From NCBI RefSeq assembly GCF_016638705.1, contig NZ_CP067341.1:3351501-3415500 (forward strand): a DNA stretch of 64,000 bases, given 5' to 3'. The translations under genes were made by a program, and so were the position numbers. Below are positions 5,567 to 51,920 of the stretch, in pieces. Numbering within the stretch: position 1 is the first letter of the stretch; each line of letters starts with the position of its first letter. Below the pieces are notes generated by a model. It worked only from the letters and a program-made list of their open reading frames with translations, ran no database searches and was not told the origin of the DNA. Origin of the DNA: Lysinibacillus agricola (GTDB lineage: Bacteria; Bacillota; Bacilli; Bacillales_A; Planococcaceae).

Positions 5567-6754
5567 TTGGATTTGGAAAGAGTTAAAAATTTAAAAGATA
5601 ATGCAATGTTAAAAATAAATACATATTTATGGGTTGAATGGGATTTTGAAAAGAATAATGTTTCAGAATTGAATGTATACGATACAACTAAAAGTAGTGG
5701 AAAAGTAGCGTGGTGGATTTGTCCTAAATGTAAAAGTAGTTATGATGCAACAGTAAATCAAAGAAGGAAAGGTCAAAAATGTCCTTATTGTAGTGGAAGA
5801 AGAGTTAACGATACGAACTCTTTAGTTTCATTAAGACCAACTATTGCGTCTGAATGGATTGAGTCTATAGGTATAAACTTAACTCCAAACGATGTTACTT
5901 GCGGAAGTAAGTATAAGGTTCGATGGAAATGTGATTTTGGACATGAATGGGTAGCTTCGATTGATCGTAGGACTAGAGGTGATGGTTGTCCTTATTGTAA
6001 TGGTGGAACTAACCTAATTTTAAAAGGTGTTAATGATATGTGGACTACTAATCTAGATTTAGCTAAGTTATTAGAAAACCCTGAAGATGGATATAAGTAT
6101 AAGCAAACTAGTGGAAAGAAAGTGATATGGAGATGTCCAGATTGCGAGACTACTATTTCAAAGAAAATATCTGATGTTAAATGGCAAGGGTTATATTGTC
6201 CAGTATGTTCAGACGGAGTTAGTTTAGGTGAAAAAATAATGTATTGTTTGTTAAAAGAATTAAATATAGATTTCGATTATGATAGTGCAAAGTACTGGTC
6301 ACAAGGAAAACGTTATGATTTTTATATTCCTTCTCATAAAATGATAATTGAAGTACACGGATTACAACATTATAAAGAATCATTTGAGCGTATTGGAGGC
6401 AAGACTTTACTTGAAGAGCAAGAGAATGATAAATATAAAAAACAATTAGCAAAAGAAAACGGGACAATGACTTATATAGAAGTGGATGCTAAAAAAAGTA
6501 ATTTTGAATACATAAAGAATTCAATATTGAGTACTGACATCGTAAAGTTTTTTAATTTTGAAGCAGATGTATTTAATGAGATATCATTTGAGATAAAAAA
6601 AGGATTCACTAGTAGAGCATGGGAAATGTGGAATTCTGGAAAATCAATAAATGAAATATCTGAAGAACTAAAACTACATGATACTACAATCAGAAGATAT
6701 CTCGAGTTAGGTTATTCTCTTGGTAAATGTAGCTTTAAAATAAAACAAAGATAA
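5567..6754 (+). CDS. Free-standing homing endonuclease (zinc-ribbon repeats plus Vsr-like nuclease)
   Basis: 395 residues from TTG 5567, with a likely N-terminal extension. Three Cys-rich zinc-ribbon units (CPKCKSSYD to CPYC; CDFGHEW to CPYC; CPDCE to CPVC) span about residues 50-215. They are followed by a PD-(D/E)XK/Vsr-like nuclease core with RYDFYIP and IIEVHGLQH (about 245-275), and a C-terminal helix-turn-helix (MWNSGKSINEIS to TTIRRYLELG). This architecture is that of phage selfish endonucleases. The paralogue at 13032 begins MCEDTYVNIQTGEVLDMERV; here the same stretch is encoded upstream of TTG from ATT 5525 (CENKYINIQTNEELDLERV), with AAGGGG about ten bases before it, so the true start may be ATT. 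Confidence 0.8.
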   Translation: MDLERVKNLKDNAMLKINTYLWVEWDFEKNNVSELNVYDTTKSSGKVAWWICPKCKSSYDATVNQRRKGQKCPYCSGRRVNDTNSLVSLRPTIASEWIESIGINLTPNDVTCGSKYKVRWKCDFGHEWVASIDRRTRGDGCPYCNGGTNLILKGVNDMWTTNLDLAKLLENPEDGYKYKQTSGKKVIWRCPDCETTISKKISDVKWQGLYCPVCSDGVSLGEKIMYCLLKELNIDFDYDSAKYWSQGKRYDFYIPSHKMIIEVHGLQHYKESFERIGGKTLLEEQENDKYKKQLAKENGTMTYIEVDAKKSNFEYIKNSILSTDIVKFFNFEADVFNEISFEIKKGFTSRAWEMWNSGKSINEISEELKLHDTTIRRYLELGYSLGKCSFKIKQR

Positions 6755-13031: not shown

Positions 13032-14459
13032 ATGTGTGAAGATACATATGTAAATATTCAAACTGGTGAAGTATTAGATATGGAAAGAGTATCAAGTTTA
13101 AAAGACAATGCAATGCTAAAACATTCCCCTCACCTATTCATTGAGTGGGATTTTGAGAAAAATGACGTAGACATTTATAAAGTAACTAAAGGTAGTAAAA
13201 TGAAATTAAATTTTATTTGCAAACAGTGTAAAAGTAAACATATTGCTATGCCAACAAATAAAATAAGAAGTAAAATGTGTATTTATTGCAGAGGATTTAA
13301 AGTTAATGAAACTAACTCATTAGCATCATTAAGACCTGATTTAGCGTTGCAATGGCATCCAAATAAAAATAACACTTTATCACCTCATGACGTTACTTGT
13401 GGATATGATAAGAAAGTCTGGTGGTTAGGTAATTGTGGTCATGAATGGGACATGAGAGTTGTAGACAGAAATAAAGGTTCTAATTGTCCAATATGTGCAA
13501 ACAAAAGAATTATAATTAATGAAAATGATTTATGGACTACTCATCCATATGTAGCAGTATTACTAAAAGATGAGTCATTAGGATATAAACATCATCATGG
13601 AAGTACATTTTGCACAGATTGGATATGTTCTAATTGTGGATTAGAAATAAAGAATAAAGAAATTAGAGTAATAGTAAAAAAAGGACTACCTTGTACTAAT
13701 TGCTCCGATGGCTTTAGCCTACCTGAAAAAATGATGAGTGCAATTTTATCTCAATTAAATATAAACTTCGATTCTCAAAAATCTTTTTCTTGGTCAAATA
13801 ATAAAAGATACGACTTTTACTTACCCACATTAAATATGATAATTGAAACACACGGCGCACAGCACTCAGTTAATCCTTATAAAAATGGAAGAAGTCTAAA
13901 AGAAGAACAGATTAATGATGAGTTTAAAAGAAGTGTCGCAATTGAAAACAAAATCAAAAATTATATTGAAATTGATTGTAGAGTTAATGACTTTGATTAT
14001 ATTAAAAAATCAATATTTAATAGTACTATGACAAATTTCTTCAACCTCAAGATTATAAATTGGGAAAACGTTTATAAAAAATCATTCAATTCTATGGTAA
14101 ATGAAGTATGTGAGATTTATAAAACAACAGAACTTACTCATACCGAAATAAGTAAGAAACTAAATGTTTCAAGTAGTACAGTTATTAGATATTTAAAAAT
14201 AGGTGCAAAAATGGGAATCGTAGAATATACTCCCAATGGCGAAAGAGGTATTCGTTCAAGTGGTATATTAAATAAAAAGAAAGTTGTCCAATTAGAAGGT
14301 TCTAATCTAATAAAAGTTTGGCAATCTATAGATGAAGCAAGTAATGCAATGGGATTGAAAAGCTCATCATCTATATCTATTGCTTGCAAAAATAATAATA
14401 GGACGGCTAAAGGGTTTAATTGGTCTTCCTTAGAACAATACGGTAAAATAGATAAGTAA
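13032..14459 (+). CDS. Homing endonuclease 2 (zinc-ribbon repeats, Vsr-like nuclease, HTH, NUMOD1)
   Basis: 475 residues, AGGAGG and ATG. Order of parts: zinc-ribbon units (CKQCKS to CIYC; CGYDKK to CPIC; CSNCG to CTNC) over about 60-230; Vsr/PD-(D/E)XK-like core RYDFYLP and IIETHGAQH (about 257-280); helix-turn-helix HTEISKKLNVSSSTVIRYL (about 366-390); and a C-terminal NUMOD1 DNA-binding module (VVQLEGSNLIKVWQSIDEAS to GFNWSSL). It is a paralogue of the protein at 5567 with an extra NUMOD1 unit. It is placed free-standing after the antirepressor gene and is preceded by the conserved hairpin leader. Confidence 0.85.
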   Translation: MCEDTYVNIQTGEVLDMERVSSLKDNAMLKHSPHLFIEWDFEKNDVDIYKVTKGSKMKLNFICKQCKSKHIAMPTNKIRSKMCIYCRGFKVNETNSLASLRPDLALQWHPNKNNTLSPHDVTCGYDKKVWWLGNCGHEWDMRVVDRNKGSNCPICANKRIIINENDLWTTHPYVAVLLKDESLGYKHHHGSTFCTDWICSNCGLEIKNKEIRVIVKKGLPCTNCSDGFSLPEKMMSAILSQLNINFDSQKSFSWSNNKRYDFYLPTLNMIIETHGAQHSVNPYKNGRSLKEEQINDEFKRSVAIENKIKNYIEIDCRVNDFDYIKKSIFNSTMTNFFNLKIINWENVYKKSFNSMVNEVCEIYKTTELTHTEISKKLNVSSSTVIRYLKIGAKMGIVEYTPNGERGIRSSGILNKKKVVQLEGSNLIKVWQSIDEASNAMGLKSSSSISIACKNNNRTAKGFNWSSLEQYGKIDK

Positions 14460-15550: not shown

Positions 15551-17932
15551 ATGAAAATGGCTACAAAAAATCCAATTGAATTGTTGATTGCCTTGGGCGT
15601 AAACGACTCATCGTCAAAAAATAATATTCAAAGTTATCTAGACAAGTTAAAAAAAGACTTAAAATTAGATGTTGAATTAAATGCAATCAAAGGTAACGGT
15701 AACACCTTTGAGAATATGCGTAAAGAAATTGAATCATTACAGAAGCAAGTCACTCAATTAAATCAAGAATTAAGCAATGTAGGTTCAAAGAAGTCTCACT
15801 CCCCTACCCTAGCTCAAGGTATTAAACAAGATGTCGTTGAGTCAATGAAATCTCTCGATCAGTTGAAGAATCATGTTAAGCAGCAAAATGGCGAATACAA
15901 GATTAAGACTGTCGTAGACTCACAAGGAATAGAAAAGATAGATGCTGTTGTTACCAGAGTGAAAACTGGATTAAACCAAATTCAGGAAACTCAACTAAAA
16001 CCTATCCTTGACCCCTCTGGCACATTGGTTGGACTAAAACAAATCAATCAAACTGTACATAATATTAGCTCAAAAGACTTAAAAGTTAATGTAACCAAAG
16101 GTATTGAAGAGTTAAACAAATTTGCTCGTCAAGGTGAGTTATCAAAAGAGAAATATGAGCAATTCAGGAATAGTATTAGTTCTTCTATCAATAATACCGA
16201 ATTAAATAAAGTATTAGAGTCCATGAGAAGTATTAATAAAGAAACTACTCATGAAAATAAAATGCAGAATTCAATGGCAAATATTAATCAGCAAGCTATC
16301 GAATTATCTCAAAAGTTAAATCAGTTTACTAAAGATAAGAATAATGCATTCAATCCTGTTGTTGTAGATAAGTTTTTGAGTAGATTGGATAAAGTAGCAG
16401 GTTCAAATTTCGATTCAATTACAGGAATGAAGTCGGCTAATAGGGATTTCTCTTCTGTAGAAAAAGAAATAAATACATATATTAAATTACAAGAAAAATA
16501 TAAATCTGTTACGGATAATTTAGAACTATTACAGCGTCAAGGAAAAATTACCTCTTCTGATTTAGCTAAGTTTACTCAAGATGCAAAATTAGCTACTACA
16601 GTAACTGAGTTAGGTAATTTAAATAAAGAAATAAATAAATTTGCTAAGAATACACAAATTGATGCTCAAACTTCTAATGCATTTAAAAATATTGGTAATG
16701 AAGTAGAGCGATTAAATAGTAAATTAAAAAATGTAACAAATGGTTTTAATGTGCCTTCAAGCAATACTTTATTTACAAAGATTAAATCTGATATTGATTC
16801 GATTAATAATATGAAGATCAATACTCCTGAAGACATTAAAACTTTGAACAAATTAATTTCTGATACCTCTAAAAATATCCGTCAACTAGGACAAGATAGT
16901 AACAGTTTAAAACAATTTGAAACTAAGACTCGTGAGATTAATGATTTACTTCAAAAAATGAAAGAATCAGGATTGCTCACTAATAAAGAAATAAGCAAAT
17001 TTGCTGATTCCCTATCAAGAATTGAAACTGGCAACCTAGCTCATGTTAATAATTTGTTGACTCAAATGAGTACTAAATTTGATAAGTTAAAAAATAGTGA
17101 AAAGAATTTAGATACATTTGAAAAACAGCAAAACTCCCTTTCTAGACTTAATTCAGAATTAACAAGAACTGAAAAGTTATTCCCTCGTACAATGGACAAG
17201 TCCAAAGCTGAGGAATTAAGAAAAGAGATAGAGAAACTTAGTAAGTTAAATATTATTAATCCTACTTCTCTGAAGAATAGTCAAAAAGAAATTGATGCTT
17301 TAAAAGAGAAAGTTAAACAATTCCATGCCGAATCCACTCAAGCTGCTAAAGGCTCTACTGGAGTAATGGAGGCATTTGGCGTAGCCATGCAGAAGTTTCC
17401 TATCTGGATGAGCGCCAGTACAATATTTTATGGCACTGTCCGTACTGCCAAGGAATTCGCCTCCATACTAGTTGATATCGACTCAAAATTAGTCTCTATT
17501 CAAAAAGTAGTAGATGATGGAACAGATATTGGCGCAGTTTTTGATAGAGCCACTCAATCAGCAGAGGCTTATGGTCAAAGTATAAGCAAGGCGCTTGATG
17601 CATATATCGAATTTTCACGTCAAGGTTATAAAGGCGACGAGTTAGGAACGTTAGCAGATGCAGGTTTAGTTGCATCAAACGTAGGTGAGATAACGGCTCA
17701 GGCAGCGTCGGAATACATGACGGCTTCTTTGGTGCAGTGGAAAAAAGATGCGTCAGAAGCTATGGGAATAATTGATAGTTGGAATAATATATCCAATAAC
17801 TTTGCAACAACAACAGAAAAATTAGCAAAAGGTCAATCTCGTGCAGGGGCAACTGCTCGTGCAATGGGATTAGAATTTGATCAGCTTAATGCAATTGTCG
17901 GTACAGTTACAGCGTCTACCAAACAATCGGGT
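15551..17932 (+). CDS. Tape measure protein, exon 1
   Basis: First 794 codons of a split tape measure gene (the open frame continues into the intron to 17968). AAAGGAGG precedes ATG. Residues about 1-600 are almost wholly helical/coiled-coil, rich in Gln, Asn, Lys and Ser, as expected of the rod that sets tail length. A hydrophobic segment (about 615-640, IWMSASTIFYG onward) begins the conserved membrane-active part. Reading in phase ends TKQSG; phage tape measures normally continue with DEVGNF and a run to VLPR, which is found at 19391, so splicing of an intron is required to make the full protein of about 3,029 residues. Confidence 0.85.
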
Positions 17933-18172
17933 AAACTTCATCGCCCCTTTGCACAGCGATGTGCATAGCAAACCCTGAATATGCTGGAAACTCGTCTCAC
18001 AGCCTTTATTAGTAATTTTTATTGGAAACGATATTAATATCTGAAAATATAAAGGACATGGTGAAAATCAGCAGAGATAGACCTAAGTGTAATATACATA
18101 TGGTAAGCTCTCAACGACTATCAAGGGGTAACTCATAATTAAAATTAATCACATTCCACCATTTATTAAATA

Positions 18173-19910: not shown

Positions 19911-22900
19911 AAATATCACATATCTCGTATGCAAGCATTATTAGATGATTTAGGTTCTGCAAAATCAATGTACAGAGACATGTACGAAACATCTAAGAAT
20001 AGTTCCGGAAGTGCAATGCGAGAAAATGAAATTTACATGCGTTCACTCGAAGCACGAATTGCATTGACACGAGTTGAATTTGAAAAGTTAGCAGTATCAA
20101 TAGGAGACGCCTTTCTCACAGATGGCATGGTGACATTTCTTCAATTAGCTTCAGGTGGATTAGGTACTATAACTAGTCTTGTAAATGGAGTTGGGTTACT
20201 CCCTATCGTTTTAGGCACTGCAGGTATGGCAACATTCGCTTTATCTAATAACTTTAGAACATTAAGCGCTAACGTTGGCAGCTCTATTATTTCATTGCTT
20301 GGATTTAGAGGTGCTGCAACAGCTACTACCACTGCAACTAATCTTTTGACAGCGACATCTAGAGGATTAGAAGTGGCATGGAAAGGTTTAGGTATAGCGT
20401 TTAAAGGGTTCATATCTTCTTTAGGCGTAGGATTGCCTTTAGTTGCCATTGGCTTTGTTATTGAAAAACTAATGAGTAAGATGGGCGAAGCTCGTCAAAA
20501 AGCTGAAGAGTTAGAATCTGCTAATAAAGAAATGCTTAATTCGTATAGTCAAAATGCTACAGATATTGATGAGTTATCAAAGAAATATGAAGAACTAGAG
20601 AAAAAAATGGCATTATCTAATGTCGACTCTAAAACTATTAATGAATATCGGGATATCCAAAATGAAATTGGCACAAAGCTCCCTTCTTTGGTTACTGGTG
20701 AAGATTCCTACGGTAATAAATTAATAGGTACAAGTGACGCACTTAAAGTTAAGATTGACTTACTCAAACAACAATTAGAGATAGATAAACAAATAGCTGA
20801 TGCTGAAGCAAATAAGAAGAGAAATGAAGATATCGATACTTATAATTCAGATATGAACTCAGCTAAAGACAAAATGCAAGGACGTTTACAGGTATTAGCA
20901 AATTATGATGATAACTCTTTAAAGTGGGCTAAAAAACTCGATGTACCAAAAGACGTTGTAATTAGACTTGTTAATGATGAAGGCGAACCATTATATAAAA
21001 CTGCTGACGAAGTTGCTAAAAAATTAGATGAAGTTAAAACTAAGCACCTCGAAGCTAAAAATTCAGGCAACGATGGTTTAGTAGAGTACTACAGTAAATT
21101 ATTATTCATGCTAGAAGAGACATATAAAGCTGTATTACCACATGAACTTGAGATGAATAAGTCAACTGCTAACCTAAAAACGCAATATATAGCATCATTA
21201 AATGCCATGATTAGTACAAATTCATCATTGCAAGACTCTACAAAAGAAATGGCTCAAGTTTTCTCATCACAACTACTTTCAATGTCTGATTCTAGTAACA
21301 TTAATGATCTAAAAAATGGTTTAGAAACACTATTCTCCTATAACGGTAATGACGAGTTATCTAGTAAAGCAAATGAGATAACTGCTAATATTTCTAAATC
21401 ATTCAGTGATATGGCTAATGCTACAGAAGAAGATTTTGGAAAAACATCAACAAATGTTAAAGCTATGTTGGATGGTCTTCCAAAGCTTTTAAAAGATGTT
21501 ATTAAAGACGAAGAAGACAGAAAAGCTGTAATGGATTTGCTTAACAAGACATATGAAAATGCAGTTGTACAGCATGAGAAAATAGCGAAAGCTGCAAAAG
21601 AAAGTGGAATAAGTTTTGAACAAGCTGCAGCTAACGCAGTTGAGTTCGGTGAAGGCGCAGAACAATCAGGTAACGCAGTATCAGAACTAGCCTCAAAAAT
21701 GAGCGAATTCAAAGATGTAACTGAACAAATGGCAGGAGTATCTCAATCAGGAGTTGATGCATTAAACGACTTAATATGGCAGTACGACACACTATCCAAT
21801 CAATTAGCAGGCTATACAGAACAACAACTTCAAGATATCTATGTTAAAGAAAATTTAACTGCAGAAGAACGCTCAGTTAAAAAAGTCTTAGATGATCGTG
21901 TAGCTATAATGAAGGAACTGTCAGGGATATACCCTGATTTACTTGGTAAAGATGGTAAAGCTATTGCCCTATCGGATGCGAAACGTAAAGCTATTGAACA
22001 AGAAACTAAAGCTAATGAGGTTCTTCTTAAAGCAAATAAGCTTTCTCGCGACGGTAAACTGAGTGCAGACCAAGACGCAATGTTATCTAGTACTAGAAAA
22101 ACTATGCGTGTAATAGAAGATATAAAAAAAGAAATCGCAGCCTTAAATGTTTTACAAAAAGCTTTACAGGATACGTACAATAAAGCTATGGAAAGCATGA
22201 AAGGTGGAGACCCAAACAGTTATACTTACGGTATGAAGGCTGCTCGAGCAGGTACATTACTTGGTCAAGCTCAATTTAAAACAAGTAATTATACATCTGA
22301 ATTAGATGCTCTGCAAAATTCATTAAATACTAACATCGGTAAAATTGATAGTTTCTCTACTGCCATTGAAAACTCTTCTAAGTCTACTAGCAGTAATACT
22401 AAAGCTACAAAAGAGAACAATGCTGAAAAAGAAAAATCCATTTGGATTACTGATAAGTATAAGCAAAAATTAGAAGAACTTAATTTAGCAATTGAAAAGC
22501 AGCAAAAGTTACAATCTAAGTATCCCGAATGGTCTAAAGAATATAAGAAATCACTAGAATCTCAAATTAAGCTTGAGAAGGAAAAGCTAGCATTACAACA
22601 AAAGCAAGCTAAAGCTATACAATCTCAAATTGCTTCAGGTAAGATTCAGCAAACTGGTAGCGTTTCAAGTCCATCTACTTCGAACGGTAAGATTAATGGA
22701 TATAGTGGTAAAATTACTTCTGGTTATGGAGAACGTTCAGATAATCATCGTGGCGTAGATATTGCTATGCCTAAAGGTACTCGTGTAGATGCTCCTGCGT
22801 CTGGTACAGTCATCAAAGCAGGTTCAGCAACATCAGAAACAAATGGCAAGAAGATGGACTGGACTTACGGCAACTTAGTAGTTATTGAAGATAAAAATGG

Positions 22901-25900
22901 AATTAGACATTTACTAGCACACTTAGATAGCACTCTAGTAAAAGTTGGCGATCAAGTAGAAGCAGGAACTCAAATCGGTAAGTCTGGTAGCTCTGGTCAT
23001 TCTACAGGACCCCACTTACACTACGAACAAAATAATTCTAAAGGTCAAACAATTAATCCTACTGCTACTTTAAATTCTATTCGTTCTGGTAATGGTACGG
23101 TAACCTCCTCTGCTTCTAGTCAACAAGCTGTAGTTTGGAATTATTTCAAAAATAAAGGTTTAAATGATAAAGCTATCGCAGGACTTATGGGTAATATTCA
23201 ACAGGAATCAGGCTTTAATTCAAGTGCTGTCAATAAGTCTTCAGGAGCGTCAGGTATTTTCCAATGGCTAGGTGGGCGTAAAACAGGACTACAAGATTAC
23301 GCTAAATCAGTAGGTAAATCTTGGACTGATATGCAAGTTCAATTGGACTATGCTTGGAAAGAGTTGCAATCTACTGAGAAAAAGTCTTTAGCATCTTTAC
23401 AAAGAAATGATTTATCATCTTCCCAACATGCATCTGAATTTGAGAGATTATTTGAACGTTCTGGTGGTTCTGCTGTTGGTAAACGTCAAGACTATGCTAA
23501 CCAATATTATAATCAATTTGCAGGCACTAATGGCGGTGCAGGAATTGGTATTGATACTTCTCAGCAGGCTATTGACCAAGCTAAATCAGATTTACTGTCA
23601 CTACAGGGAGACGCTCTCAATACTCAATCTATCATTGATAATTTGAATGAAGAATTAGTTAAATCTAATCTCGCATATTACGATCATCTTATTGATGGCG
23701 TAGACCGTTCTATTCAGATGTCTAATATTCTCGCATCTCAACAATCGGAGCATTCAAAGGCGTATCGGGATGAGTTAGAAAAAGAAACTAAGCATCTAAA
23801 GTATAAGCAAACTTTACTGCATAACGAAGCTAACTTTATTCGTAATCAACTTAAACGTAAAGATTTGTCCCCTGCTTTAAAAGGTGAATTGACTACTCAA
23901 CTAAGTGAATTATCATTGGCTTGGTGGGATGTTGCTGAAAGCATAAAAGATGTAAATGAGAAGATTCAAAATAGTAAAGTTGAATCATACATCGCAAAGT
24001 ATGATGAGTTACGTCAAATACAAGATAAGACTATTAGCTATGAAAAAGCTAAACTTGAAGAATTGGATACTTCTTCCGCTAGATATGTGAAAACTCTTGC
24101 AAGTATAAACAATGCGATGAGAGAAAAACAAAACTCTAATCGCTACGAATTAACTCAATTAACTGCTCTAATAAACAAAAATGAGTTGCAAGGTGACGCT
24201 TTAGAGTATGCTAAAAACCGTATAGAAGAATTGACACTAAGTATTAAAGAATTACAGATTGAAATTCAAGATGGAGATTATGATATTTTAATTAATATTA
24301 AAACTCAATCTGATGAAAAAATTGGCATAATGGAATCTGCAATTAATCAAGCTGAAGCAATTCGTAAAATGTTTGATGAAGGCTCTGCTGATTACGTCAA
24401 ATATACGAAAGTTATTCTTGCAGAATATGAAAAAATGGCTAAACAGCATTTAGCAACTAGAGACGCTTTAGTTGCAGAATTACAGCAGCGTGATGTTAAG
24501 GCTGAACGTATTAAGGAAATTAACAAGCTAATGGCAGAGGAACATCTAGCTTATGTAAATGCTACCCTATCCATCAAAGAGTATACAAAACAAGTTGAGG
24601 AAGCTAATAAATCGCAACTTGAAAGTGTTGCAGATAAAGCTATCAATGCATATAAAGAATACATTCAAGAGCGTAGAGATGAGCATATAAAGACTCTTGA
24701 TGATGAAATTAAGCATGAAAATGAAAAGCACGAGCAAATCATGAAAAATCTTAATGATGAAATGGATTTGTTTAGAAAGAACGTTGAAGATAAGCTAAGA
24801 CTTATTGATCGTCAAGAAGCTCAACGAAGTTATGACATGGAAATTTCAGACTTAGAAAAAGAGCGTAATAATGTTCAAAGCCAATTTGACGAATTAGCTT
24901 TAGATAATTCACATGAAGGTAAAGCTAAACGTAAAAAGTTAAAAGAACAATTAGATGAAATTGACAAGCAAATTGAAGAAAAACGTCATAGTCGTGAAGT
25001 CGAATTACGTAAAGAATCTTTAAACGATGCCTTAGAAGCTAAAGAAGAAGAAGTAAATGAAAAAATTGAACTTCAAGATAAAGAGCACGAAAATGTAATC
25101 AATAAGATTAATCGTGAAAAAGAATATTGGGAGAAGCATTACAAAGATTTACTTAATGATGAACGAAAATTTGCCGAAATGAGAGAGGCAATTCTTTCTG
25201 GTCATTTTGAGAAAATTGATGCTGAATTTCAAGAATATGTTCAAAAAATGATTAATACTATGCCACTTTTAGAAGATTCTCTAGACGGTACTATGGTAGC
25301 TGTCGGAACTTCTATTAGACAAAATGTAATTGATAATTTAAACGAAGCACTTAAATTAATTGATGAATTTAATGATAGTCAAAAAGCATCTGATAATGGT
25401 TCATTCAACTTCAATCCTTATGACGGTAATCAAGTTCAAACATCTAATGGCAATCTATCTCAGGGTGATTTACAAGTATTATTAGGTAAATTCTTATTTG
25501 ACAACGTTGCTCCTAACACATCTGGCAGTGAAAAAGATAATATTCGTCAAATGGCAGAAAAATTGGCTGAGCAAGGTCGAAAAAATGGCAGCACTCAATT
25601 CACTAAAGATGACGTTAATTTTAATGATTCCATTAAAGGTCTTACTCAAGCCGATATGGACGCTTTATATGAATACTTTGATAGTAGTAAAGGAATGTTA
25701 GGCGGTAATTATGATAGTTTTATTGAGCAGTTTATAAGTAGTATTTCTGGCAATAAACATGAATCTACGAATGATGGAAGTTTATCTAAAGCAGATATGC
25801 AAGTTATGCTAGGTAAATTTATTTATGAAAAATTAGTACCTGATACATCGTTGAGCGCTAATACTAAAACAGCATTAAAAGCAAAAGCTGACGGCGTTGC

Positions 25901-26414
25901 CAAACAAGGTCGAAACGGTGGTTCAAAGATTTCAGAAAATGTGACATTCGATGCTATAAAGAGTACATACACTTCTGGACAAGTCAATCAAATGAAGTCA
26001 TTCTTTGACTCCAATTTAGGTATGATTGATAATGCTAAAACTAGAGAGCTAATGCAAAGAAAGATAGCTTCGCTTGATACTGGTGGATTTATGAATTGGA
26101 ATGGAACAGGTATCGATGGTAAAGGTGGTAAAGCCATCATAGCTCATCCAAATGAAATTATGTTGAATAAAGTTGATACCAAAGGATTCTTTGATTCAAT
26201 TAATGTAATGGATAAGGTCATGAGCAACCTATCCCCTTTCCTATCAAAATTCGCACCTGCACAAAAAACATCTCCTGTTGTTAGTGGAGATACATATGGT
26301 GACATCAAAATAAACTTCAATATTGATAAAATGAATGGTGACAAAAATGACTTAAGTCGATTCAATAAAATGATTGACGATGATTTATTACGTAGAAAAG
26401 GAGTGAGAAAGTAA
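19911..26414 (+). CDS. Tape measure protein, exon 3 (M23 peptidase and tail lysozyme domains)
   Basis: 2,167 codons in phase from KYHISRMQALLDD; an isolated ORF starts at ATG 19929. Hydrophobic stretches follow (about 60-190 of this exon), then long coiled coils. At 22,690-23,075 there is an M23 metallopeptidase domain (GYGERSDNHRGVDIA, HLLAHLD, GPHLHYE zinc ligands). At 23,115-23,520 there is a phage tail lysozyme domain (GLMGNIQQESGFNSSAVN with likely catalytic Glu). The rest is coiled coil to about 25,200 and then Asn/Gly/Ser-rich repeats. The layout parallels SPbeta YomI/CwlP: a tape measure that also opens peptidoglycan during DNA injection. Confidence 0.9.
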   Translation, partial: KYHISRMQALLDDLGSAKSMYRDMYETSKNSSGSAMRENEIYMRSLEARIALTRVEFEKLAVSIGDAFLTDGMVTFLQLASGGLGTITSLVNGVGLLPIVLGTAGMATFALSNNFRTLSANVGSSIISLLGFRGAATATTTATNLLTATSRGLEVAWKGLGIAFKGFISSLGVGLPLVAIGFVIEKLMSKMGEARQKAEELESANKEMLNSYSQNATDIDELSKKYEELEKKMALSNVDSKTINEYRDIQNEIGTKLPSLVTGEDSYGNKLIGTSDALKVKIDLLKQQLEIDKQIADAEANKKRNEDIDTYNSDMNSAKDKMQGRLQVLANYDDNSLKWAKKLDVPKDVVIRLVNDEGEPLYKTADEVAKKLDEVKTKHLEAKNSGNDGLVEYYSKLLFMLEETYKAVLPHELEMNKSTANLKTQYIASLNAMISTNSSLQDSTKEMAQVFSSQLLSMSDSSNINDLKNGLETLFSYNGNDELSSKANEITANISKSFSDMANATEEDFGKTSTNVKAMLDGLPKLLKDVIKDEEDRKAVMDLLNKTYENAVVQHEKIAKAAKESGISFEQAAANAVEFGEGAEQSGNAVSELASKMSEFKDVTEQMAGVSQSGVDALNDLIWQYDTLSNQLAGYTEQQLQDIYVKENLTAEERSVKKVLDDRVAIMKELSGIYPDLLGKDGKAIALSDAKRKAIEQETKANEVLLKANKLSRDGKLSADQDAMLSSTRKTMRVIEDIKKEIAALNVLQKALQDTYNKAMESMKGGDPNSYTYGMKAARAGTLLGQAQFKTSNYTSELDALQNSLNTNIGKIDSFSTAIENSSKSTSSNTKATKENNAEKEKSIWITDKYKQKLEELNLAIEKQQKLQSKYPEWSKEYKKSLESQIKLEKEKLALQQKQAKAIQSQIASGKIQQTGSVSSPSTSNGKINGYSGKITSGYGERSDNHRGVDIAMPKGTRVDAPASGTVIKAGSATSETNGKKMDWTYGNLVVIEDKNGIRHLLAHLDSTLVKVGDQVEAGTQIGKSGSSGHSTGPHLHYEQNNSKGQTINPTATLNSIRSGNGTVTSSASSQQAVVWNYFKNKGLNDKAIAGLMGNIQQESGFNSSAVNKSSGASGIFQWLGGRKTGLQDYAKSVGKSWTDMQVQLDYAWKELQSTEKKSLASLQRNDLSSSQHASEFERLFERSGGSAVGKRQDYANQYYNQFAGTNGGAGIGIDTSQQAIDQAKSDLLSLQGDALNTQSIIDNLNEELVKSNLAYYDHLIDGVDRSIQMSNILASQQSEHSKAYRDELEKETKHLKYKQTLLHNEANFIRNQLKRKDLSPALKGELTTQLSELSLAWWDVAESIKDVNEKIQNSKVESYIAKYDELRQIQDKTISYEKAKLEELDTSSARYVKTLASINNAMREKQNSNRYELTQLTALINKNELQGDALEYAKNRIEELTLSIKELQIEIQDGDYDILINIKTQSDEKIGIMESAINQAEAIRKMFDEGSADYVKYTKVILAEYEKMAKQHLATRDALVAELQQRDVKAERIKEINKLMAEEHLAYVNATLSIKEYTKQVEEANKSQLESVADKAINAYKEYIQERRDEHIKTLDDEIKHENEKHEQIMKNLNDEMDLFRKNVEDKLRLIDRQEAQRSYDMEISDLEKERNNVQSQFDELALDNSHEGKAKRKKLKEQLDEIDKQIEEKRHSREVELRKESLNDALEAKEEEVNEKIELQDKEHENVINKINREKEYWEKHYKDLLNDERKFAEMREAILSGHFEKIDAEFQEYVQKMINTMPLLEDSLDGTMVAVGTSIRQNVIDNLNEALKLIDEFNDSQKASDNGSFNFNPYDGNQVQTSNGNLSQGDLQVLLGKFLFDNVAPNTSGSEKDNIRQMAEKLAEQGRKNGSTQFTKDDVNFNDSIKGLTQADMDALYEYFDSSKGMLGGNYDSFIEQFISSISGNKHESTNDGSLSKADMQVMLGKFIYEKLVPDTSLSANTKTALKAKADGVAKQGRNGGSKISENVTFDAIKSTYTSGQVNQMKSFFDSNLGMIDNAKTRELMQRKIASLDTGGFMNWNGTGIDGKGGKAIIAHPNEIMLNKVDTKGFFDSINVMDKVMSNLSPFLSKFAPAQKTSPVVSGDTYGDIKINFNIDKMNGDKNDLSRFNKMIDDDLLRRKGVRK

Positions 26415-48074: not shown

Positions 48075-49178
48075 TTATTTTACAGAACCACTTTTAAAAG
48101 TTTTGTCTGGATAGTACATGTTTTTAACTATAATATTAGAACCTAAACATTTAACAGACGGACAATGACAGTTAATACTGTTAGAAATATTAGTATTCAA
48201 CCATTTATCATAAATATTCTTCAATGATTCCTCTTTAATATTACCCAATGCTGCCCCATCATCAGTGAAATCTGATACAGAAATATCTCCTGAAAAAATA
48301 TTTAAATTCATTCGTGATCTTCCATCAACATCGTTTCTAATAGTTGTATTTGGAGTTCCATTAATTCTTTCTAATAAAGCTAAATCACGCTTATCAGAAC
48401 TACAAGCATAGAATGGCAATGTACCGAATAATACCCAAATGTTTTCATTTCTAAAGTCAAGTATGTTATTGACTGTATCTCTATATTCATCTAATCCTAT
48501 AGTTTCTAAGTTTTCAGCGTAGTCACTTGAATACATAGGATGAATTTCGTGCCTTTTACAAAGCATTTCACTAGCTACTTCATTATGAATCTTCTCAAGA
48601 TAAGGGACTGTATTGCGATTCAACATAGTCTCTGCTGATACAAACATTCCACCTTTTGAAAGTTCCCTAGCATTATCTAAAATGTTTCTGTATAATTCCG
48701 CTCTTTTTTGTACAGGAGGTTTTCTATCCATCATTGCAAATCCTGTTTCGACAAATTCCTCTTCATTACACCAGTTATGAGAAATATGCATAACGTCTAA
48801 ATATGGTGCAACCAATTCATAGTGATCCATAGGTAATGTTAAATTTGAATTGATTTGAGTTTTAATGTTTCTGCCTTTAGCATACTTCAAAAGTGGTAAT
48901 AAATTATCTCTAATCCCCTTCTTAGTAAGCAATGGCTCTCCGCCAGTAAAACTCATTGTACGTAAAGTTTCAACTTCATCTAATTGTCTAATAATATCAT
49001 CTATTGGAAGTGAATTTGCTTCTTTTGTTGTTAGTGCATAACCAACAGCACAATGAGCGCACCTCATGTTACATAAATTAGTAGTGGTAAATTCAATGTT
49101 TGATAGAGTCAGTCTTCCATACTTCTCAATGTCATGATAGCTTTCCCATGTGTCATACGGTTTATATATAGTATTCAT
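48075..49178 (-). CDS. Phage-borne YfkAB-like radical SAM protein (replacement for interrupted host gene)
   Basis: 367 residues from ATG 49178 (upstream residues to 49217 lack a start context). The protein has the radical SAM cluster motif CNMRCAHC (about 40-47), the GGEP motif, a full barrel and the C-terminal CxCxxxxC motif (CHCPSVKC). It is complete and co-linear with the host fragment at 49985-50851, and by eye close to 60 percent identical to it. The host gene is cut by this prophage, so this copy likely restores its function in the lysogen. Leftward, downstream of a recombinase-like fragment and behind a hairpin overlapping its ribosome site. Confidence 0.85.
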   Translation of the reverse strand: MNTIYKPYDTWESYHDIEKYGRLTLSNIEFTTTNLCNMRCAHCAVGYALTTKEANSLPIDDIIRQLDEVETLRTMSFTGGEPLLTKKGIRDNLLPLLKYAKGRNIKTQINSNLTLPMDHYELVAPYLDVMHISHNWCNEEEFVETGFAMMDRKPPVQKRAELYRNILDNARELSKGGMFVSAETMLNRNTVPYLEKIHNEVASEMLCKRHEIHPMYSSDYAENLETIGLDEYRDTVNNILDFRNENIWVLFGTLPFYACSSDKRDLALLERINGTPNTTIRNDVDGRSRMNLNIFSGDISVSDFTDDGAALGNIKEESLKNIYDKWLNTNISNSINCHCPSVKCLGSNIIVKNMYYPDKTFKSGSVK

Positions 49179-49182
49179 GATT

Positions 49183-49229
49183 AAAAAATCTCCCTTTCTG
49201 CTATACAATTTTCGCATAGTTTAGGGAGA
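49183..49229 (-). promoter_or_regulatory. Terminator-like hairpin overlapping the ribosome site of the spare yfkAB gene
   Basis: Read on the minus strand: TCTCCCT (49229-49223) pairs with AGGGAGA (49195-49189), with an inner CTAT/ATAG stem, followed by six T (49188-49183) and the ATG at 49178. The 3' arm is also the Shine-Dalgarno sequence. It could act as an attenuator or terminator for the upstream recombinase transcript and/or control translation of the spare gene. Confidence 0.6.
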
Positions 49230-49239
49230 TAATAAAGGG

Positions 49240-49845
49240 TTAGTTATTATATGTTATCTTAAAAGTTTCATTTTCATAAACTTTGATATGATCAATTAAC
49301 GCTGAAAGTAATTTTTCTGTAAAGTCAGTAATTCCAGTATCTTTAGTAATTTGTCTCAGTAAATCACTTTCAAGTATGGTAGAGACTTCAGTATCACAAA
49401 ATTCTTTTGACTTTAACCTTCCTGAGCAAATGTATCTTACGTTTTTACCTCCCTTCCTAGCATAAATTTTACCGCATTTAGAACAAATAATTTTTCTTCT
49501 GAATAACATCTCCATATTTGTTTTGTCTATTTTATCTAACTTTCCAATTCTTTTCTTCAAAATGTATTCAATTAAATCTTCATCGAAATCTAAATTATAT
49601 TTGTTTAATAAATACTCTGTGAAATCTTCAAATTGCAACTGATGCTTTTTCAAAAATGAACACATTGCTGCGTAATTATACCCAACTGTTATGACAATAT
49701 TTGCAATGTAAAACGAACTATCATATCTATTGATAAAATATGTCTTAAACATTGTTACTGCTTTCTTGTTTTTATCGCCTACTCTTTTCAGTTGATTCTG
49801 AGTAAGTGACTTCAAAAACATTATGTTATTGATTGGATTTGCCAT
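49240..49845 (-). CDS. C-terminal part of a serine-recombinase-like protein
   Basis: 201 residues from ATG 49845, but the frame is open upstream to a TGA at 50116-50114-equivalent position 50016-50014, through the prophage-host junction, adding about 56 residues. A zinc-ribbon of large serine recombinases is seen at about 120-155 (RRKIICSKCGKIYARKGGKN, then CSGRLKSKEFC), followed by a C-terminal strand block LLSALIDHIKVYENETFKI typical of the family. The N-terminal catalytic resolvase domain and its serine are absent here. The missing half is probably at the other prophage end, or lost. Confidence 0.55.
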   Translation of the reverse strand: MANPINNIMFLKSLTQNQLKRVGDKNKKAVTMFKTYFINRYDSSFYIANIVITVGYNYAAMCSFLKKHQLQFEDFTEYLLNKYNLDFDEDLIEYILKKRIGKLDKIDKTNMEMLFRRKIICSKCGKIYARKGGKNVRYICSGRLKSKEFCDTEVSTILESDLLRQITKDTGITDFTEKLLSALIDHIKVYENETFKITYNN

Positions 49846-49980
49846 TTTATCGAATTGCTCTGCGAATTCAGCAAAAGCATCTGATACTATATTTGCTTGA
49901 TTACGTATTTCTTCAAAATAGTTAGCCTTAATATCAAATTCCTGTTTTACTTTTATTAAACCATTTATATCTTCTGTAAC

Positions 49981-49998
49981 TACAGGAGAACCGATGAT
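49981..49998. other. Prophage right attachment site (attR) inside yfkAB
   Basis: Right of about 49985 the plus strand reads GEPMM in the yfkAB frame; the expected preceding residues of the host protein (radical SAM core and TGG) are absent and replaced by phage sequence. The switch lies in ACAGGAGAACC, encoding the GGEP motif. The exact crossover cannot be fixed without attL or an uninterrupted allele. Confidence 0.7.
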
Positions 49999-50851
49999 GT
50001 CTAAGAAATCCGTTCAAAACTATGTATTGCCTTTATTGAAATATGCGCATGGACGAGGCGTGCGAACACAAATCAACTCTAACCTAACAATGGAGCCCGA
50101 ACGTTATTTACTGATTGCACCGTATTTAGATGTGCTACATATTTCACATAACTGGGGTACGATCGATGAATTCGTCGAAACAGGCTTTGCCATGATGGAG
50201 CGAAAGCCAACTTATGAACAGCGTGCAGCTTTGTTCCAACGCATGATTGATAACTCAAAAATGCTTGCAGAGCACGGTGTAATGGTATCGGCGGAAACAA
50301 TGTTAAACAAAAAAACTTTACCATACTTAGAGCATATCCATCATCAAATCATCAACGAAATGAAATGTGCACGCCATGAGGTGCATCCGATGTACCCTTC
50401 AGATTTTGCAAGTGCCCTTACGTCTCTATCACTTGAGGAAACTCGTCATGCGATCCATCATTTACTAGATGTCCGTGATAAAAACACTTGGATGCTTTTT
50501 GGCACGCTACCTTTCTATCCATGTAGCATGAATGAAGAAGATCAAAAGCTCCTAAAACGACTAAGGGAAGAAAAAAACGTGACGATGCGTAATGATCCTG
50601 ATGGTCGCTCACGCTTAAATGTTAATATATTTACTGGTGATGTCATTGTGACAGACTTTGGCGACACACCAGCGCTTGGCAATATTGCGAACGACGAATT
50701 ACCAGCGATTTTTGATAAATGGATGGCAACAGATTTAGCGAAATCACTAAACTGTCACTGTCCAGCAGTCAAATGCTTAGGACCTAACGTCCTTGTTAAA
50801 AATATGTATTATAAAGATGCAGGGTTTGTTAGTGGCTCTGCTATAGTGTAA
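49985..50851 (+). pseudogene. yfkAB: Host yfkAB, 3' fragment interrupted by the prophage
   Basis: Encodes the last about 288 residues of a radical SAM/CxCxxxxC-motif protein, from GEPMMSKKS to the end, including CHCPAVKC near the C-terminus. The iron-sulphur motif CxxxCxxC and the start of the gene are missing and presumably lie left of the prophage. ATG codons at 49994 and 49997 exist but have no ribosome site and would give a protein without its cluster motif. The function of YfkAB is unknown to me. It is followed by a terminator. Confidence 0.85.
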
Positions 50852-50960: not shown

Positions 50961-51920
50961 TTATTCCTGATGTAAATTTAGACTTTTTATTCTTTCAATT
51001 TCTTCTCTCGATAAGCCTAATAAATCCATTATTTCTTCAATCGGTTCATGACGTTTTAGTAGTTTTTTCACTAACTCTATTTGCGCTTGTTTACGCCCTT
51101 GCTCTAGTCCTTGTTCTCTTCCCTTGTTGATTCCATCAATGTAACGGGCTTCTTCATCTAAGATATACTTTAAACGAGACTGGTAAGCAAGAATTGTTTC
51201 AGGGGATTGACTGATTTCTTCCCATGTATCAAATGCTGCGCGCAAGTTTTCATCCTTCATCGCTAACTCCTCCAATTCACGATATATCTCTGCATAAACT
51301 TTCTTTTTGCGACCATCGACCATACCAAGTAATAACAACCATCGAATTAATATGTCATCAAGAGCATCTAATTTTTCTTCATGCCAGAGAGTAATAAACT
51401 TGTTCATTTCTATAAAGTGAATTTCTAGTACATCTTCTTCTGGCATTAACCTCGATAATGTTGTGTCTTCATAAAGATGATACGTACTATGATAAGATTT
51501 ATTATCTTTAAACATTGTAAAATTACATATATTGATCGTAATGGTTGGGCGTAATTCACTATATCCCATCCCTCTAGCTAGTTGTGACTCATACATTTTT
51601 GCCCAATAATATAGCGTTCTCTTTGTCATATCATGCTGATTGGATAGTTGAATTTCTACATTGATAAAGTCATCATTTTGTGTTTTTACAAGAATATCGA
51701 GCCTAGATTGTTTATCGTCCTGATATTCACCGCCCAATTCTTGCTGAATAAATGTTACTTCTTTAATAGTATCTCGTCCGGTTAGCTTTAATACCGCATT
51801 CAAAAAAACAATTGTCATTTTTTTATTTTTTTCATTTCCGAACAATTGCTTGAAGGCAAAATCAACCTTCAAATCAAAAAACTTTTCTAACGGAATTCTT
51901 CGTATTGCTTTTCGATTCAT
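50961..51920 (-). CDS. Rpn-family PD-(D/E)XK nuclease / putative transposase
   Basis: 319 residues, ATG start with AGAGGTGATTCC upstream. The N-terminus FFDLKVDFAFKQLFG and the nuclease core (RLDILVKTQNDDFINVEIQL, with D and E-x-Q) identify the Rpn/PDDEXK_2 family. These proteins promote RecA-independent recombination and include a C-terminal helix with repeated EQGLEQGRKQAQ-like heptads, seen here at about 265-290. Length is typical. It belongs to the host side and is transcribed toward yfkAB. Confidence 0.85.
   Translation of the reverse strand: MNRKAIRRIPLEKFFDLKVDFAFKQLFGNEKNKKMTIVFLNAVLKLTGRDTIKEVTFIQQELGGEYQDDKQSRLDILVKTQNDDFINVEIQLSNQHDMTKRTLYYWAKMYESQLARGMGYSELRPTITINICNFTMFKDNKSYHSTYHLYEDTTLSRLMPEEDVLEIHFIEMNKFITLWHEEKLDALDDILIRWLLLLGMVDGRKKKVYAEIYRELEELAMKDENLRAAFDTWEEISQSPETILAYQSRLKYILDEEARYIDGINKGREQGLEQGRKQAQIELVKKLLKRHEPIEEIMDLLGLSREEIERIKSLNLHQE

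Follow-up and report, generated by a model that had tools for sequence, protein, structure and literature searches.

A prophage of Lysinibacillus agricola interrupts yfkAB at its GGEP codons and carries a diverged copy that probably takes its place

Some phages and islands restore the end of the tRNA gene or protein gene into which they integrate, and the host function survives integration. In Bacillus subtilis, SPbeta resides in spsM and phi3T in kamA, and both genes are rebuilt by excision during sporulation (PMC8270828). The gene yfkAB serves phages of Staphylococcus aureus as bacterial attachment site, attB (PMC11852059, PMC7329321, PMC8638950); phiST9-A adjoins yfkA (PMC12282191) and phiSabovST1 lies between two hypothetical genes (PMC12570506), and both presumably belong with the Sa5int phages. 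In Mx8, the phage attachment site, attP, lies within the integrase gene int, and a different activity was reported for the integrated form (PMC6070905); a review of archaeal elements, as excerpted, describes tyrosine integrases that disrupt themselves as confined to archaea (PMC8371274). Here, we describe a locus of L. agricola (assembly GCF_016638705.1, hereafter G000; 5.29 Mb on a single contig) that lies in a window of 64,000 nucleotides (G000:C1:3351501-3415500), where an SPbeta-like prophage splits yfkAB, which encodes a radical S-adenosylmethionine (SAM) protein, and carries a complete, diverged homologue, yfkAB'. We consider it likely, with a probability of roughly 0.8, that the phage breaks yfkAB at the GGEP codons via a serine integrase and that yfkAB' takes over from the broken gene. 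The features concerned (window coordinates) are as follows.

48075-49178, minus strand: yfkAB', complete radical SAM protein YfkAB, putative phage-borne substitute (TIGR04478, 549.6 bits)
49179-49239, minus strand: region upstream of yfkAB', presumably promoter-proximal and including its ribosome-binding site and the TATGCGAAAAT block (a similar block is present in other copies)
49240-49980, minus strand: orphaned C-terminal ~246 codons of a large serine integrase, with the second recombinase zinc ribbon, severed by integration (PF13408)
49985-49991, no strand: attR core GGAGAAC, common to attL, attR and the attP of viral contig G261
49985-50851, plus strand: native yfkAB, 3' remnant that begins near residue 80 and lacks the SAM-cluster motif (93% identity to the intact gene of genome G004)
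1-49984, no strand: right-hand part of the ~157-kb SPbeta-like prophage, the remainder of which lies left of the window (att sites; tape-measure, minor tail and amidase families)

That the prophage interrupts yfkAB had been proposed from the window alone, and both junctions bear this out. The 5' part of the native gene (query residues 7-83) was located where the original prediction had placed it, at the left prophage end, 107 kb left of the window (G000:C1:3244313-3244543), with attL at G000:C1:3244532. The left junction reads host ACTGGCGGAGAAC, then phage; the right junction reads phage ACAGGAGAAC, then host CGATGATG. Both have the 7-bp core GGAGAAC in common, which sets the size of the element at about 156.95 kb and its left end beyond the window. 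The insertion point is formed by the GGEP codons of the sole native yfkAB. Its 5' part is 92% identical to the intact G004 gene, and its 3' part is still open. TIGR04478 matches the latter only at model positions 79-360 (493 bits), and a domain search returned no Radical_SAM match in it. The cluster motif is missing from the remnant as had been claimed, and only the claimed start at GGEP had to be corrected, to a position inside this motif, at GEP.

The complete homologue expected 0.8 kb inside the prophage on the minus strand is separated from the native remnant by 806 bases, and is inverted relative to the native gene. Its match to TIGR04478 (549.6 bits; cut-off 250) covers model positions 5-360 of 363 and is thus full length, and the translation contains the SAM-cluster motif CNMRCAHC (CxxxCxxC), GGEP, and the C-terminal CxCxxxxC as NCHCPSVKC. 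The start was assigned to the ATG at 49178; the listed open reading frame (ORF) opens at another ATG, 49217. A block T[AG]TG[AC]GANAAT, similar to TATGCGAAAAT, occurs upstream of all seven phage and relic copies and of the four native genes printed (4/4). Identity to the native yfkAB of the same genome is 56%, in agreement with the view that the copies are homologous yet far from identical. No gene end is restored by the insertion: both native parts stay truncated, and the phage copy is separate, inverted and diverged. In the whole G000 genome, YfkAB matches at E ≤ 0.001 numbered three, the phage copy and the two native parts, and no second intact native yfkAB, the case that had been named as speaking against replacement, was among them.

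The integrase gene is split as well. At the left end, a large serine recombinase of 607 amino acids on the minus strand (L004 8432-10255) reads through attL into antisense host DNA; at the right end, the 246-codon frame is open through attR, in the phase matching the attL integrase. Two viral contigs contain what corresponds to the phage form. In L049 (IMGVR_UViG_3300025292_000011), one ORF of 821 amino acids covers both integrase parts, and the yfkAB' ORF lies 110 bases further on. The other, G261 (IMGVR_UViG_3300022879_000002; 121,875 bp), is circular, as its terminal repeat of 127 bp shows; it reads AACTACAGGAGAACGCCCC unbroken within the integrase frame, and again yfkAB' is the next gene. 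The original prediction had suggested a search for related phages that pair the same target and cargo, and these two contigs indeed pair yfkAB' with the integrase. The orphan tail of the window is a homologue of residues ~590-817 of the L049 integrase, and its identity to the integrase tail of G261 is 80%. Resolvase, Recombinase and zinc-ribbon domains were all found in the left-end protein of G000 and in the L049 integrase, which identifies them as large serine recombinases. As the frame runs through the core in circular G261 (in L049, the core is putative), attP is, judged by these frames, located inside the serine integrase gene, an arrangement that is new here. From the single integrase gene of the phage-form contigs, it follows that integration replaces the C-terminal ~240 residues with about 32 that the host encodes.

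The ratio of nonsynonymous to synonymous substitution rates (dN/dS) between G000 and G261 was 0.18 for the integrase tail (0.07 for its first 45 codons) and 0.06 for the body; against the more distant L049, it was 0.45 and 0.21, respectively, with dS near saturation. The higher values of the tail indicate weaker constraint on it than on the body, and the related integrase of L099 (G265) ends at 557 amino acids, the tail being absent. In G264 (IMGVR_UViG_2615840593_000003), the integrase end occurs twice, first fused to antisense host yfkAB and then, past a run of N, joined to the phage tail. This suggests a culture in which the integrated and the circular form coexisted; the alternative is a scaffolding error. 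An 18-mer scan of the L049 and G261 integrases against 25 native yfkAB genes brought up no similarity at the att position. The shared core has only 7 bases; assignment of the att sites thus depends on the junctions and not on similarity, and yfkAB is only a candidate target for L049. The idea that the phage copies were recoded at the core was not adopted: the Glu codon of the copy is opposite to that of attP in three of three cases (G000, G261, L049), which is suggestive only, as two of the three are close kin, the L049 core is putative and the relics described below do not conform.

The association of yfkAB' with insertion into yfkAB is not confined to one integrase. A second prophage, of ~134 kb in genome G023, splits native yfkAB at HPMY with the core GGTACATCGGATG. 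Its integrase (506 amino acids) is only ~23% identical to that of G000, and its att site lies outside the integrase gene; yfkAB' again directly follows the integrase gene and is 95% identical to that of G000. Both prophages have many left-end genes in common. Identity to the yfkAB' of G000 is 79-95% for the copies of four further Lysinibacillus genomes and 87-91% for those of three viral contigs. Five cases are phage-borne: G000 and G023 at yfkAB, G261 with the G000 core, L049 with a candidate site, and L048, whose contig opens inside the gene. Integrases of the G023 type (E ≤ 1e-80) occur in 3 of 261 genomes of the family (G023, G133 and G021), each time at yfkAB. In G021 (L046 8414-9592), a native-type yfkAB has an in-frame insertion of 19 codons exactly at HPMY and a related serine integrase gene adjoins, with nothing else of a phage nearby; perhaps the insertion is a prophage scar that kept the frame.

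A YfkAB search of 32 Lysinibacillus genomes provided the comparison with prophage-free relatives that the original prediction had recommended. Only the native type was found in 27 genomes, the phage type in five, none of which shows an intact native gene; intact genes of both kinds occurred together in none. In G009 and G010, a phage-type gene (79-80% identity) lies between the HAD and LLM genes, the usual flanks of native yfkAB; no prophage was seen between these flanks, only a few other genes. Remnants of the native gene persist in both genomes (residues 299-369 in G009; residues 80-224 and 336-370 in G010), and that of G010 begins at AGAACCGATG, which is the core breakpoint of G000. In G019, the phage-type gene (84%) adjoins LLM on a contig that ends 0.5 kb past the gene; no native yfkAB fragment was found, and no prophage is visible beside it. 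Stretches similar to the integrase tail directly precede the relic genes, with best E values of 4e-6 and 9e-5 in G010, 3e-4 in G009 and 0.005-0.007 in G019 (three queries, only 3.5 kb searched, E values uncorrected; chance matches in the same table lie near 0.02-0.1). The order HAD(-) YFK(+) holds in 24 of 25 native loci (L016-L040) and in G021 (G011 was not part of this survey). In G009, G010 and, as far as its contig reaches, G019, the gene is inverted and thereby matches the prophage orientation.

Among seven phage and relic copies (21 pairs), dN/dS ranged between 0.02 and 0.12, with many dS values above 1; on these rates, yfkAB' is under strong purifying selection. For G009 versus G010, with a prophage at neither locus, dN/dS was 0.116 at a dS of 0.24. 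In a tree of 59 rows, phage copies, relics and the genes of Metasolibacillus, of the genus of Caryophanon, of genus g9 and of part of genus g16 formed one clade (100/100), termed type II, from which the native Lysinibacillus genes stand apart; within it, G009 and G010 group with six copies from g16 (100/99). Outside Lysinibacillus, 15 genomes, including Metasolibacillus and Caryophanon, have type II yfkAB as a single copy. At the GTPase/beta-helix locus, type II genes are inverted in 11 of 11 cases (five from the genus of Metasolibacillus and six from g16) relative to the type I arrangement, which is seen in nine of ten type I loci (the tenth has no neighbor in reach). The other four type II loci comprise one in each orientation from the genus of Caryophanon and two of g9 without any of the neighbors sought. 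The inverted loci would fit older displacements of the same kind, or equally an inversion followed by capture of the gene by a phage.

A number of observations weigh against replacement as a general rule. YfkAB was matched in 197 of the 261 family genomes and in none of the remaining 64. In G133 (genus g13), a 134-kb prophage at the HPMY site breaks yfkAB with no yfkAB' present; its integrase is 51-52% identical to that of G023 and hits the same codons, and the place of yfkAB' is occupied by a gene of 105 amino acids with a weak zinc-ribbon match. The yfkAB of G192 looks frameshifted. These three findings imply that yfkAB is not essential everywhere and is dispensable in some lineages. A strict rule that a break in yfkAB always comes with a substitute is ruled out by G133; the original suggestion that yfkAB is needed by host or phage is only partly supported and has to be toned down. 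Apparently resident genes of other genera belong to the type II clade, so that the phage may merely have captured one of them. With the end of its contig 0.5 kb away, G019 may have a prophage on another contig, and its integrase relic match is weak. Orientation as sole proof of phage origin is ruled out by G025 (L143), where a native-type yfkAB is inverted between HAD and LLM with no trace of a phage, and by the one type II gene of the genus of Caryophanon that is not inverted. G009 and G010 probably represent one event. Lastly, yfkAB' was found neither in the 36-kb G265 fragment with the related, tail-less integrase nor in G264, the contig of which ends at the position expected from comparison with G023.

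In G133 (L142 10867-11184, weak match) and in Geobacillus virus E3 (L096 6684-7067), a small zinc-ribbon gene that stands by itself close to the integrase gene resembles the tail that is part of the integrase in the Lysinibacillus phages.

Taken together, we infer that replacement of yfkAB by yfkAB' is most likely, and that it could proceed as follows. The serine integrase directs the phage into the conserved GGEP codons of host yfkAB, and the gene is thereby destroyed. The same integration severs the C-terminal ~240 residues of the integrase and leaves yfkAB', together with its own upstream region, near attR. In the lysogen, yfkAB' may be transcribed from this region, the block of which resembles that of native yfkAB. 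If its product performs the same chemistry, it would restore YfkAB function and lower the cost of lysogeny. The truncated integrase might be the post-integration form, with altered activity or direction. Subsequently, the native fragments would drift and the prophage may decay, with selection maintaining yfkAB', which would amount to gene displacement driven by a phage.

It could be argued that excision rebuilds yfkAB during sporulation, in the manner documented for spsM and kamA (PMC8270828), and that yfkAB' is unrelated cargo. The phage is SPbeta-like and has a serine integrase, the native 3' part in G000 is open and 93% identical to the gene of G004 (the 5' part, 92%), and G133 lacks a substitute altogether; the assembly of G264 contains an attP-type end besides attL, which is the sole sign related to the rebuilding type. 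Such timed excision leaves unexplained, however, why, in two prophages with different integrases, the cargo should be homologous to precisely the gene that is broken, and why yfkAB' is kept where the prophage is absent while the native fragments decay, so that we regard it as unlikely. That type II yfkAB is an old bacterial gene spread by ordinary horizontal transfer, and acquired separately by the phages and by G009, G010 and G019, would accord with the 15 non-Lysinibacillus genomes with a single type II copy, with the grouping of G009 and G010 with six g16 copies (100/99), with the Caryophanon loci of either orientation and with the two g9 loci lacking the neighbors sought. The relics of the integrase tail upstream of the gene in G010, G009 and, weakly, G019, the att breakpoint of G010, the inverted placement and the uniform inversion of the Metasolibacillus and g16 loci (11/11) all run counter to it and make it quite improbable.

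Use of yfkAB' by the phage itself, for example in metabolism or antidefense, with insertion into yfkAB being a coincidence, strikes us as very improbable indeed. The gene does occupy the end with the integrase, a common location for cargo, and its radical SAM domain has a distant match to a PADLOC viperin (4e-12). The score of 549.6 bits for TIGR04478 versus 38 for the prokaryotic viperin model rules out a viperin-like defense protein, however, and no sequence relative of YfkAB' was found in the PDB at E 0.001. Coincidence is further opposed by the sites, as two of the five phage-borne cases (G000 and G023) lie at yfkAB and G261 has the G000 core, and by the rarity of the gene among 50,697 phage records, in which only three Staphylococcus records matched at E 1e-5. 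The two examined, phiST9-A and phiSabovST1, are no carriers of yfkAB cargo, because their yfkAB runs into host flank beside the integrase, 99.9% and 99.5% identical, respectively, to a native S. aureus locus, and the phage contributes no more than the first codons (the third record is OR845001).

Replacement by the phage copy may have a parallel at another enzyme gene. In the phage records, the best-ranked match to the integrase was that of Geobacillus virus E3 (33.6% over 96%). Its gene encodes 675 amino acids, overlaps by 4 bases with a complete pdp (pyrimidine nucleoside phosphorylase), and a zinc-ribbon gene of 127 amino acids follows. At the position that corresponds to attP in Lysinibacillus, the E3 integrase reads FGGVGDTTTTK, and the DNA there is visibly richer in G+C than its surroundings. 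When 24-mers of the E3 integrase gene were compared with 34 host pdp genes, this stretch gave the best match (22/24; elsewhere ≤ 19, mean 16.0, standard deviation 0.89), a figure inflated by four of the 34 genes having been fetched because they match the pattern. With these four set aside, exact matches at the motif extended over at most 16 bases in the remaining 30 genes (then 14 and 14), versus up to 15 elsewhere in the integrase gene among the 14 rows listed. A pattern derived from the E3 stretch with wobble at three positions occurred in 4 of 338 genomes of the class, always in pdp at KHSTGGVGDTTTL and in frame; the exact letters of E3 were present in none of these four. An E3 lysogen was found neither in viral_contigs (only E3 itself) nor in the 261 family genomes (1e-40) nor in 398 class genomes (1e-50). 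In the phage records, pdp had 28 matches; among the 15 listed, the 13 other than E3 are without annotation. We predict from these matches that E3 probably inserts into pdp at GGVGDTTT and replaces it. The pdp of E3 itself reads GGVGDKIS at the motif, unlike its att stretch; recoding was rejected here as well, since GGVGDKISL is also the commonest motif in the 30 host pdp genes fetched (13, with TTTL in 8), and the difference is suggestive only.

Somewhat in favor of the idea, we tentatively propose that some large phages have a 'break and replace' module, in which a serine integrase targeting a conserved enzyme motif adjoins a diverged full copy of the enzyme gene that the host may keep; there would be at least two targets, yfkAB (GGEP or HPMY) and, by prediction, pdp (GGVGDTTT). 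In the group with att inside the integrase, entry would rewrite the C-terminus of the enzyme and may switch its direction. If true, provision of a whole substitute would be a third way to live in a protein gene, besides restoring its end and leaving in time. Prophages would have a route to permanently change the allele of a resident enzyme, with G009 and G010 (probably a single event) and possibly a third species as examples, and older candidates in related genera. The natural long and short forms of one serine integrase would make control of direction testable, and, as a search rule, the gene adjoining a serine integrase may reveal its integration target.

The prophage is called SPbeta-like based on its protein families (tail, tape-measure, minor tail, amidase and ribonucleotide reductase) and on its tape-measure protein, which is akin to that of Lysinibacillus phage LC76P1 and to yomI of SPbeta; further kin of this protein are in Psychrobacillus phage Perkons and Geobacillus virus E3. 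Two ORFs 2 kb apart (window 15551-17968 and 19929-26414) may together make up the tape-measure gene, the first of 805 amino acids corresponding to the first ~770 positions of a family of 2625 positions and the second, of 2161 amino acids, being tape-measure-related; an intron or a frame break is a possible cause. Two related proteins similar to HNH/homing endonucleases are encoded at window 5567-6754 (phrog_4538) and 13032-14459 (phrog_559). On the host side, the gene adjoining the yfkAB remnant (window 50961-51920), which we take to encode an Rpn-family nuclease, is uninterrupted in G000 and divided between two ORFs in G023 (L041 5181-6321).

Compared with described systems, the locus combines features that occur separately elsewhere. 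The integrase of Mx8 is a tyrosine recombinase. Like SPbeta and phi3T, the Lysinibacillus phage is large and temperate, has its serine integrase at the edge of the prophage and uses an intragenic attB, and the tape-measure proteins are akin; the two B. subtilis phages differ in that the gene is rebuilt by excision, and the excerpted account mentions no phage-borne copy (PMC8270828). The attP of SPbeta is described between sprA and sprB and not inside the integrase gene. With the Sa5int-type phages of Staphylococcus (phi11, phiSA169, phiST9-A, phiSabovST1), the phage has, according to the excerpts, its target yfkAB in common; those phages, however, enter near codon 15 and, in the records of phiST9-A and phiSabovST1, provide a phage-made new start instead of a whole copy; the enzymes carry the annotations integrase and XerC rather than serine recombinase. 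As in Mx8 int and the suicidal integrases of archaea (SSV1, pTN3, pT26-2), attP lies within the integrase gene, and integration rewrites or splits the integrase (PMC6070905, PMC8371274). The archaeal enzymes are described as tyrosine recombinases, whereas the enzyme here has serine recombinase domains and retains its catalytic part on losing a C-terminal tail with a zinc ribbon; it works like the Mx8 or suicidal type without being a member. Unlike in these systems, the integrase gene is followed by a substitute for the target. Among the open-licence PubMed Central (PMC) matches listed, neither a phage that brings a complete substitute for its own disrupted target nor a serine integrase with attP in its own gene was found; either may be in print elsewhere. 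As with phages that restore a gene end, host function would be kept, here by a whole, divergent and inverted gene supplied with its own upstream region.

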